A stretch of DNA of 64,000 nt from Antedon mediterranea (Eukaryota; Echinodermata; Crinoidea; Comatulida; Antedonidae): assembly GCF_964355755.1 (NCBI RefSeq), contig NC_092673.1, positions 27,347,001-27,411,000 on the forward strand, written 5' to 3'. Shown piece by piece: positions 27,901-32,247 of the stretch. The position numbers were made by a program, and so were the translations under genes. The notes beneath the pieces are model-generated. The model did no database searches and was not told the origin of the DNA. It worked only from the letters and a program-made list of their open reading frames with translations. The first letter of the stretch is position 1. The number at the start of each line of letters is the position of its first letter.

Positions 27901-30900
27901 TATTCTAAACACTGAGTGGATGATTGATCAATTCAAAATAGAATCATTGGTATAACAAGAAACGCTGTAATTCATTGATAGGTTCTGCATGACATGGTCA
28001 GACTGATCACGAATCACACATAATACACAATATTCTTTCGAACTGACAGATGATAAGGAAGATCTTATATTTAAAGTAACAACTTATTGAAAGAAAAAAA
28101 ACAGTAGAACTTAGAACTTCATGAGCCACTGAGAAAGCATATAAAAACTGACAGAAAATCTGCTGATCAACCATTGTTTTTTATTTTTTATTTTATTTTA
28201 TTCAATTTCCAGGTAACATACAAAAATCATAAACAAGGTACGGCATCATTCAACAAAACAGAACAAAAGTACTATCAGCACCTGCGGGTAACCAAAAGTG
28301 GATCAGTTCAAAAGAACTGCACTGTCGAGTGGCTTTCCCAACTAATAGTACAAAAAACGCAATAGACATAAAAACACAGTGATAGTCTAGATGAATTCGA
28401 TATCAGTAATACATTTTTTCAGATCCCTTCTAAACCCCCCAAAGTTAAACAGGACTTTGTTACGAACTTCATGCGGGATACATTCCCATATTCGAGGGAA
28501 ATTAACAAACAGGGAGTATTTAAATGCATTAGTTCTAGCATACATGTGTTTAAAGGTGAGGGACTCTGGATACCGAGAATTAATTGTAAGGTATTCAAAT
28601 ATATCAAAATCAATTAAATTATGCAAACACTTAACTACAAAAATTATACTATGAAATTTCATTCTTTGAACCATATCTGGTAAATTTAGTATCTTAAGCC
28701 TGTCAGTGAAATCGCCTTGGAGTATGATCATAGCCCAATTTTAATATCTTTAACCAAATATGACTTCACATATCTTGATGGATGACGTTGAAATACCAAC
28801 AGATGTTCCAGAAGAAAACTTACAGTAAAAACATGATGGTCATGCACTATAGGATGCAGTAAACATGGCTGTAAACATTTGGTGACTATGCAAGTATTTA
28901 TGCAAGTTACCTAGATATTTCATCATTTTGTTGTATTTGATCATTACATTGGAAAGGGGTGGATAAAAGCAGTGACACGATTGAAAGGATAGTCCCAATG
29001 TACTAATCTGTACTTCCGTATGTGTTTTGGGCCACACTCATCGGTTTGGAGGAGAACAAATATCACACAGTTTTTAGACATTCTTTATGTCAATAACAAA
29101 GAGCTTGCAATTATACATGAAAGTTGATGTTAATTAATTATATGCACTTTGTAACAGTAGCCTTCAAAAGTATGGACGATGTCTGGTATAGTGAACAATA
29201 AAGTGGTTGAAAACCTATTAAGAATAATCTAACCAGCTTCCATGCCATTACAGGTTGCAGCACGTCATTATTTCCTGGTTATGGGAAGAGGTCATACTGG
29301 AAATCATTTGTAACGCATCCACTCCTTGTAAATGGAATTGATTAAGACTTTCCACGTACAGTGTACACTAAAGTTTAATATTGCCAAATATACAGTGTGG
29401 TACTCTTGAGCAGATAACTGTATAATAACAGACTACTCTTTGGTGCTACCTCCATCTAGACTCAGTGACCATATACCATTAACACTAGTGATATATATTT
29501 CCCTTAAATATTAAGTATTTCACTTCACTCAATAAATATTTAAGTACCTGTATTTCTACTTCGGGAAACACTTAAAATTAAAAAAACTCACCTATGGTGA
29601 ATACAGACATCATAGAACCTAAACATACGAGCCAACTATCAGGCAGAGATCAGTATGTGGCCTAAATGAATCGGGTCGTTTGGAAGCCCCTAACCCAGTT
29701 GTCAGTTTGGAACTTGTTACATGTGTATGTAAACTAAAGAGCCAGATGAAGTTGTTACAGAAAGCATGCATATGTGGTTGTGATTCAATCGTTTGCCGTT
29801 ACCCAGATGGCCAGTAGGCATTATATATCAGTGCTTGAAGAAATACCCACCTCAGAGCGTCACATCCTTCCATCCCAGAAAAATTTTGAATATTGGCATG
29901 TGCCCATGCCGCCCATTACTCCCAACCCACAAACCCTCTGTGACCGTTAACACCTTCCAGGAGTGACTCAAAAAGTTTAAAATCTTCCCAGTACAATTCT
30001 GGTCTTTTTGACACTACACTATAACCATCAGCCCAAGGCTATCATGAAAATTATATTTATTTCAATTATTACCGATAATTAACAGGTCTGTGCTCTATTT
30101 GACCTTATGACCTTGAAAATGACCTTTAAACTTGTAAGTTGAAAAATTGATGAACTTCACCATCTGCAGCAATATGTCAATAATGATCCAATAATGGTTA
30201 CATTTCTTTTAATTAGCTTATATGTTGTTGAAAACAGCTTAAACCTCTATTTTACCATATTTGACCTTATAACCTTGAAAATGACCTTTGACCTGAAATT
30301 TGAGAGCGGCATCCACCCCTATCTTTTTTGTCATCCCATAAGGGATATATTCCACATGGTTGCCTGCTATTAACAGAAAATGCCCCCCATGATGAAAAAG
30401 CTCACACTGGCCACCCTACTATAATGGCTACGAGTGCTTACTGGCTAAACCCAAGGGGCCCCAGAGCTTAAGGAGCCACAGAGCATGAGCAGTCCAATGT
30501 AACTACCCAGCGTTGGAGGGCCCCTTAGGAGTGCTAAACCAGGGACCTTTGCCCTGTGCGTTACGCCACTGGTTATGTAATAGTAGTTTACCATCGTTTT
30601 ATGGACTGTTTGTATTCAATTAACTGTATTCTGGATTGCGTTCTTAAAAGTGACGTCGTACATGCTTGATCATCCCAGTGGACAGTGCAGCAGTGAACAA
30701 CTACGCAGCATTGGAGGGCCCCTTAGGAGTGCTAAACCAGGGGTCTTTTCCACCATGCATTACCCCACTGCAAATGACTGATTTCAATTTAATAATTCTT
30801 TTGGCAATAATTTGAAAATACTTTGAGCTCAACAAAGTGTCAGTTTTCCTAGCAGGGTGAATCTGTTATAATACAATTCTACATGCTTACATATTGGTTC

Positions 30901-32247
30901 TCCAATATCTCTTAATTTAGCTTTCACCATAGAATCATCAGTTGATATATGAAGGGTCCTTGCCTGAAAGAAAATAAAAACATTATTTTATAGAATGGAT
31001 TTTTCAATGTTTTATACAATACATATTAAACACCAATAAATAAAAGAACAAACAAATCATAGATGGAGTTAATAAAATGTGAAAACAAACCTTTTTTCTT
31101 CTTGCGAACTCGGCTAACAAACTTTTCTTTTGTTCAGATGAATGTTCTTCTAGATTGAATGTTTCACCTGCAGGACAAATGAGCACAAGACAGTAAAATA
31201 AAGATACATTCACTTTCACTCGAAAACTACTTGTATATTTTAAACCACATTTCAATACAAAATTAATTTAAATTTGCACATGCATTGATGTTGTTATGCG
31301 CGATTTGAACGATTTGCGCAATTTGAAATTGCGCAAAAAAATCCTTGCGCAATTTGAAATTGCGCAAAGAATTCTTGCGCAATTTAAAATTGCGCAAGGA
31401 TTTTTTTGCGCAATTTCAAATTGCGCAATCAACTTGCGCAATTTCAAATTGCGCAAGAAAATCTTTGCGCAATTTTAAATTGCGCTGCACAATTTGTAAA
31501 TTGCGCAAGATAGTTCTTGCGCAATATGACACCTTTGCGCAATTTGAAAACGAACTGTAAATTTTCCCATACATGGCTAGGCTAGGCCTAGGCAGAGGAG
31601 TTTAAAATTTAGTATTTTATTATATAAATAAGACCATTTCAATGAAGATAATGTTTAAAACTCACTTTTTAAGTTTTTAATATTAGTTTAAGCTAGGCCA
31701 TGTAACCTAGTCAGTATCAGTAGTCCAGACCCTAGCTAGGCTAGAGTAGTATAGACGGCCGCCCGCGCCGCGCCCGCCTGGTGGAACACCACCGCTTCGT
31801 TTCCCTTCGTCGGTTCTTCGACGGTATGCTAACTTATAACAATATTTGCAGTACTAAAATAAGGAAATGCGATATTTATCTTTAAGTTTGAATCATTCTT
31901 AGAAATTACTATAAAAATATGGGTGTGCATGATTTCACAATCTGTCGAAAAACCTTGCGCAATTTGCAGATTACTTGCGCAATTTAATACGTTGCTTGCG
32001 CAATTTGAAACACATGTTTCAATTCAAATTGCGCAAGGATTTTTTTTGCGCAATTTCAAATTGCGCAAATCGTTCAAATCGCGCATAACAATGTCAATAC
32101 TCCACCTTTAGATATGTTAATGTTGCCTGCTAGAATCCCAGTAGTAATTGCGTCCTCTTTTGTTGCTTCTTTCCGCAACGCCTCCTCCAATGTTCCATAG
32201 TGAACTTTCTGTTTTTTTAGAACTGGACCAATGTCTTCGTCTGCCAT
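21999..32247 (-). CDS. PRPF4: U4/U6 small nuclear ribonucleoprotein Prp4, 13 coding exons
   Basis: Coding exons, minus strand in gene order: 32106-32247, 31091-31167, 30891-30963, 26261-26385, 25533-25709, 25255-25349, 25088-25146, 24842-24965, 24428-24517, 23733-23855, 22977-23084, 22434-22552, 21999-22192. Phases agree and give 501 aa (human about 522). PRPF4 binds PRPF3 and PPIH in the U4/U6 and U4/U6.U5 snRNPs of the nuclear spliceosome. The N-terminus has the short PRP4-like motif region (about 60-105; [19 protein letters not shown]). Seven WD40 repeats fill about 205-501, with [76 protein letters not shown] and a C-terminal [12 protein letters not shown]. The exon 4 donor is weak (GTTGGT). 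The first coding exon has an acceptor 10 bases upstream of the ATG, so a 5' UTR intron is likely. Confidence 0.96.
22210..22413. repeat. MITE family B fragment, PRPF4 intron 12
   Basis: Ends with TTTGGGGGGAAATACATCTT and contains ACTACAAAATGGCCTATTC, as in other family B copies. It occupies most of the intron between the last two exons. The left terminus is lost. Confidence 0.6.
22596..22787. repeat. MITE family A copy with internal 20-bp tandem expansion
   Basis: Left end AAGCTTGGTCTACACTATC, right end GATAGTGTAGACAGAGCTTT. The core is four tandem copies of a 20-base unit, ATGATGTCATATCACTACCA type (22640-22720), instead of one. It lies in PRPF4 intron 11. Confidence 0.92.
23991..24133. repeat. 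MITE family A copy, PRPF4 intron 9
   Basis: TAAGCATTGTCTACACTATC at the left, GATAGTGTGGAGAGAGCTTT at the right, core ATATGGACATGATGTCATC. Confidence 0.9.
24595..24743. repeat. MITE family A copy, PRPF4 intron 8
   Basis: Left end altered (AAGGTCTACACTTACTATC). Right end GTGATAGTGTTGCAAAAACT is diverged. The core ACATCATCATGACCATATAT is intact. Confidence 0.85.
25975..26238. repeat. About 43-bp minisatellite x 6 beside PRPF4 exon 4
   Basis: Units contain TCACAAGGCTTACTGCAGTA and ATCAACTAGGTGACATGGTA. The array ends about 22 bases from the exon 4 donor (exon edge 26261), so it starts almost at the beginning of intron 4. Confidence 0.92.
27265..27540 (-). pseudogene. Possible decayed LINE fragment (endonuclease-RT linker-like)
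   Basis: A 91-codon open frame whose start (SWNLICR...[15 protein letters not shown]) resembles the linker between endonuclease and reverse transcriptase in CR1/Jockey-type LINEs (W-x-L...W-x-x-W pattern). No catalytic motif is visible and the similarity is weak. It may be chance. Confidence 0.25.
27600..27845 (+). pseudogene. Decayed non-LTR retrotransposon 3' end
   Basis: Reading across a frame break gives [20 protein letters not shown], then [12 protein letters not shown], then [11 protein letters not shown]. This matches the common tail of CR1/L2-like reverse transcriptases (TRGH...LFKP...FFSQRVVNxWNSLP...TFKNRLD). Stops and a frameshift show that it is dead. It sits inside the TIR element of PRPF4 intron 3. 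Confidence 0.65.
28387..28731 (-). pseudogene. Non-LTR retrotransposon reverse-transcriptase C-terminal fragment
   Basis: A 114-codon frame has the spacing of LINE C-terminal tails: [20 protein letters not shown], then [13 protein letters not shown], an ART block, then [14 protein letters not shown] and GFRRDLKKC. The upstream RT domain is absent, so it is probably 5'-truncated or a relic. It is on the opposite strand to the LINE tail at 27600. Confidence 0.6.
30474..30775. repeat. Two copies of a short dispersed repeat, PRPF4 intron 3
   Basis: CTACCCAGCGTTGGAGGGCC, CCTTAGGAGTGCTAAACCAG and GCGTTACGCCACTG at about 30510-30570 recur as ACTACGCAGCATTGGAGGGC and so on at about 30700-30772. On the minus strand the end CAGTGGCGTAACGCAC resembles a SINE head. 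Confidence 0.6.
31284..32098. mobile_element. 815-bp foldback element built of TTGCGCAATTT palindromes, PRPF4 intron 1
   Basis: The ends are inverted copies of each other for about 70 bases: ATTGAYRTTGTTATGCGCGA, then TTTGAACGATTTGCGCAA, then more. Each end holds palindromic units with arms TTGCGCAATTT and AAATTGCGCAA: about seven at the left (31312-31550) and two to four at the right (31956-32085). The middle (31750-31830) has a GC-rich block that contrasts with its surroundings. No ORF of note. The right end stops 7 bases from the exon 1 boundary. Confidence 0.85.

Follow-up and report, generated by a model that had tools for sequence, protein, structure and literature searches.

The first intron of the PRPF4 gene of Antedon mediterranea harbors a member of a young, non-autonomous, cut-and-paste-type DNA transposon family of the foldback kind, a conclusion drawn from copy number, identity, target-site duplications (TSDs), a target motif, and empty sites. 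The family is apparently undescribed so far, though of a known kind. Very probably, this non-autonomous foldback transposon was moved in trans, presumably by an enzyme of Ginger2 type, and landed in a PRPF4 intron that was already there. The features of the element and its host gene are listed below in the coordinates of the window, i.e., the whole 64,000-nucleotide stretch of DNA that was analyzed.

31292..32090, no strand: whole element, subfamily A, from homology limits and the termini TGTTATGCGC...GCGCATAACA in sampled copies
31288..31291, plus strand: left TSD, ATGT, from sequence and the TSD statistics of the family
32091..32094, plus strand: right TSD, ATGT, on the same grounds
31292..31341, plus strand: left terminal inverted repeat (TIR), pairing with 32041-32090
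31314..31549, plus strand: left array of TTGCGCAATTTNAAATTGCGCAA palindromes and half-units, with 14 TTGCGCAA words
31550..31945, plus strand: unique core of subfamily A, in whose place subfamilies B and C have other cores
31954..32068, plus strand: right, shorter array of TTGCGCAATTTNAAATTGCGCAA units, with one full palindrome at 32046-32068 and 6 TTGCGCAA words
32041..32090, minus strand: right TIR, lying with the left one within a single 58-nt complementary pair
31168..32105, minus strand: intron 1 of the host gene PRPF4, whose GT donor (32105-32104) and AG acceptor (31169-31168) lie beyond the limits of the element
32106..32247, minus strand: PRPF4 coding exon 1 (host), from the hPrp4 match of exons 1 and 2

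The element and its family

The mobile unit is 799 bp long and reads 5'-TGTTATGCGCG...CGCGCATAACA-3'; its ends are TGTTATGCGCGATTTGAACG and its complement. Apart from short chance frames, it has no coding capacity. When the 815-bp query is aligned to other genome copies, the homology extends from position 9 to position 807, and the limits of the initial annotation (31284-32098) are accordingly too wide. The inverted ends described there are borne out, the arms 31284-31341 and 32041-32098 being 97% complementary over 58 nt. On either side, the outermost 8 bases consist of the TSD (ATGT) and 4 flanking bases (ATTG/CAAT), not of arm, and they resemble arm sequence because the target sites of the family are themselves near-palindromic.

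The genome scan covered 354 Mb in 18 contigs, and copies turned up on 11 large scaffolds, C1 to C11. For the 28 nt at the start of the terminus there are 614 exact matches, 311 on the plus and 303 on the minus strand, against none for a reversed-pattern control, which corresponds to about 300 elements. All 40 copies scored among 438 first candidates are near full length and 99-100% identical to the window copy, and among nine copies of 799-bp type the pairwise difference averages 0.41% and does not exceed 1.0%. The suspicion that the sequence is a mobile element is thus upheld by some 300 copies with fixed ends, TSDs of 4-5 bp, and empty sites; it is not a single-copy sequence.

Subfamilies A, B, and C, together with A/B mosaics, have common arms and different cores. 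Most fetched copies measure 693 to 880 bp, and most typed copies carry 7 to 15 TTGCGCAA words in the array left of the core. Four copies (L018, L031, L033, and L084) have cores that are partly subfamily B-like and partly subfamily A, which suggests recombination or template switching between copies. A 1516-bp copy (L069) was considered as a longer parent and rejected, as its extra core matches other repeat DNA (the flank of L006) and marks a nested or joined insertion. At locus L035, around positions 300-1530, a copy reduced to its last ~50 bp lies beside a repeat with AACTCGTCCGTAGTGACGAGTTCAAATCTAGT at its borders, the two occurrences of this sequence being separated by about 1.15 kb. At L014:621-741, a sequence that resembles 5S rRNA (74 bits to Rfam RF00001) directly adjoins a family copy; with the GGTTCGA box that follows, it could be a 5S-derived SINE that served as target.

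Integration sites and the probable transposase

Among 38 distinct sampled insertions, 33 carry a TSD of 4 bp, three one of 5 bp, and two none, which makes 36 with a TSD of either length; the initial annotation had proposed to look for TSDs in other copies. The DNA around the 4-bp TSDs follows a palindromic target motif, ARTR-NNNN-YAYT (symmetrized consensus). A purine precedes and a pyrimidine follows the TSD in 29 of 33 targets (p about 5e-14 in a binomial test with 25% expected); the share of T at -2 and of A at +2 is 89%, and the bases inside the TSD are only weakly Y-W-W-R. Empty sites are represented by the joined flanks (one TSD kept) of L009 and L070, which match uninterrupted repeat paralogues at 92-93% identity through the junction; the joined flanks of L027, L031, L075, and L077 show small gaps at the insertion site when compared with repeats. 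Precise integration of the cut-and-paste type is established for the family, and the window copy presumably arrived in the same way.

Ginger2/Tdd transposons encode, or are mobilized by, a transposase that resembles the Gypsy integrase (rve, H2C2). Ginger2 transposons have TGTNR termini, 4-bp TSDs, and the target RTATAY (Bao et al. 2010, PMC2836005), and their TSDs have also been given as 4 or 5 bp (PMC10045372). The family described here resembles Ginger2/Tdd in its termini, TGTTA...TAACA, which fit the TGTNR rule, in TIRs of the 50-180 bp class, and in the length of its TSDs; its R-N4-Y target may correspond to RTATAY. It differs in the palindrome arrays of its arms, the extension of the target to ARTR-N4-YAYT, and the loose sequence of the TSD, and no transposase or coding partner was found for it. 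From termini, TSD length, and target, Ginger2 is the superfamily that fits best, the family being a candidate member, and we favor, with moderate confidence, a mode of action like that of Ginger2. In the proposed mechanism, a transposase supplied in trans, probably an integrase-like (rve) DDE enzyme of Ginger2 type, would most likely recognize the 28-nt termini and either cut the element out or copy it. The TG...CA ends would then be joined to ARTR-NNNN-YAYT target DNA with a stagger of 4 bp, sometimes 5 bp, which would give rise to the TSD.

An element of the same kind could instead be mobilized by the transposase of another superfamily that generates TSDs of 4-5 bp, whether IS481EU-like, Academ-like, or undescribed. 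We regard this as possible but distinctly less likely. IS481EU also has TGT..ACA ends and TSDs of about 4 bp (PMC10045372), and the failure of our searches to find an autonomous partner leaves room for such an enzyme; however, Ginger2 agrees in termini, in TSD length, and, less clearly, in the R-N4-Y target, and IS481EU is reported only from parabasalids, where TSDs of ~15 and ~25 bp occur as well. None of the 38 copies has a TSD of that length, and the host genes, such as PRPF4, have introns; IS481EU itself was rejected on these grounds. Ginger1 was set aside as well, since it needs a CCGG or CCGT TSD and none occurs among those sampled. Galileo of Drosophila is similar in its foldback structure, long terminal inverted repeats, repeated arm units, mosaic and deleted copies, and palindromic target motif; however, it belongs to the P superfamily, with TSDs of 7-8 bp against 4-5 bp here, and its arm repeats are direct tandem repeats (PMC4168063) rather than palindromes.

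The search for an autonomous partner of the family took in genome arms with different inner borders and odd-bordered copies, fetched or located, all of which proved to be ordinary copies or a lone end. Nine copies on scaffold C1 without a second exact terminus were fetched and are ordinary non-autonomous copies. All exact termini lead into a TTGCGCAATTTNAAATTGCGCAA-type array apart from isolated cases, namely a lone truncated end and copies that are ordinary by sequence or position. This lone end, an isolated 27-nt terminus at L082:42-68 without array or second end, lies upstream of a host-gene exon that by eye resembles a cytochrome b5 reductase-type gene. Of the matches to Pfam rve in the genome, those that were inspected resemble retroelements of Gypsy/BEL type or pieces of retroelements, and no termini of the element lie nearby. 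No transposase-bearing partner having been found, the superfamily is assigned from ends, TSDs, and target only. Such a partner could be absent, could have diverged at its ends, or could have the same border letters as subfamilies A, B, and C.

Palindrome arrays of the arms

The arm unit is a 23-nt palindrome, TTGCGCAATTTNAAATTGCGCAA, that is present in every sampled subfamily. Full palindromes of the left array start at 31314, 31345, 31375, 31406, 31434, and 31465, and Tandem Repeats Finder reports a 31-bp period with 5.7 copies at 31314-31485. The element holds 20 of the 22 TTGCGCAA words of the whole window. The description of the arms as chains of palindromes in the initial annotation agrees with the many nested inverted pairs that were found. 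The foldback structure is real and its folding is far beyond chance: on the PRPF4 strand, the predicted RNA fold has -340 kcal/mol against -195 for shuffled sequences (z = -19), and the left arm folded as DNA has z = -15.5.

Such a very stable predicted fold might point to structured intronic RNA that serves PRPF4 as a functional RNA or as a regulatory hairpin. This is extremely improbable, as the same sequence is found in about 300 unrelated places in the genome, Rfam yields no family at or above its gathering score (the arm matches all fall below it and come from generic hairpins), and the stability is explained by the palindromic arms. The arrays are more probably extra transposase-binding DNA or replication-unstable arm DNA than a coding or RNA feature.

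Palindromic-array arms are unusual. The family shares with MITEs its short length, lack of coding sequence, TIRs, TSDs, and high copy identity, but differs in arms that hold arrays of self-complementary units and allow many possible folds. One family copy contains, nested within its right array at L012:2231-2512, an unrelated foldback of 282 bp with perfect 58-nt outer arms, 72-nt inner arms, and TTCGTTTGAACGGATTA palindromic units, and an architecture of palindromic arrays has therefore arisen at least twice in this genome. A more speculative idea, which we consider rather unlikely, is that the arrays take an active part in the mechanism. An integrase-type TG..CA foldback would multiply self-complementary arm units, perhaps through hairpin replication slippage or because the repeats serve as transposase sites. 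Unrelated foldbacks such as the one in L012 would have converged in a host that tolerates or generates palindromes.

The PRPF4 intron and its significance

The assignment of the host gene to PRPF4 and the intron coordinates 31168-32105 given in the initial annotation are right, as indicated by the hPrp4 match and the GT...AG borders. The translation of exons 1 and 2 aligns across their junction with human hPrp4 (E 1.4e-13), which has no extra residues at this point. The element starts 124 bases from exon 2 and makes up 799 of the 938 bases of the intron, or 85%, where ~87% had been estimated; it ends 15 bases from exon 1, 4 of them TSD, and not 7. A segment of a PRPF4 intron, 30490-30740, contains two stretches of CCCTGGTTTAGCACTCCTAAGGGGCCCTCCAA-type sequence at a distance of about 190 bp from each other, and the flank of L071 matches it over 30 bp; it is probably another dispersed repeat.

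The initial annotation proposed that the insertion had created or greatly extended the intron in the manner of introners. According to this explanation, the element either brought splice sites with it or recruited them, and in this way gave rise to PRPF4 intron 1 and to introns at other places. The large share of the intron and the closeness to the donor speak for it, as does the fact that, in some introners, both splice sites are recruited from the exon DNA around them (PMC9860276); the element is also like introners in being a non-autonomous DNA transposon with TIRs and a 4-bp TSD inside an intron. However, it neither supplies nor recruits splice sites, and neither splice site lies in the element or the TSD. 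When the element and one TSD are removed, a normal GT-AG intron of 135 bp remains with both splice sites and a pyrimidine-rich end. This empty intron holds an in-frame stop if unspliced, so splicing was needed before the insertion and the intron is older than the element. The lack of extra hPrp4 residues at the junction likewise speaks against this origin. Of 34 other copies, a single one has joined flanks (198 bp) that can be read as an open frame, the corresponding figure for control DNA of these loci being 13%; the element does not seek exons. Creation of the intron thus fails as an explanation, and we consider an introner origin very unlikely. The insertion hit a pre-existing 135-bp intron, 15 bases from its donor.

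An element that fills 85% of an intron therefore need not have made that intron, which calls for caution when introners are called by position alone. The family is young and probably recently mobile, its palindromic target motif is clear, and several of its insertions could be compared with empty sites; it is of use both in the annotation of this genome and in the search for an active transposase. If the palindrome-array arms are functional, they would bear on how foldback elements grow.
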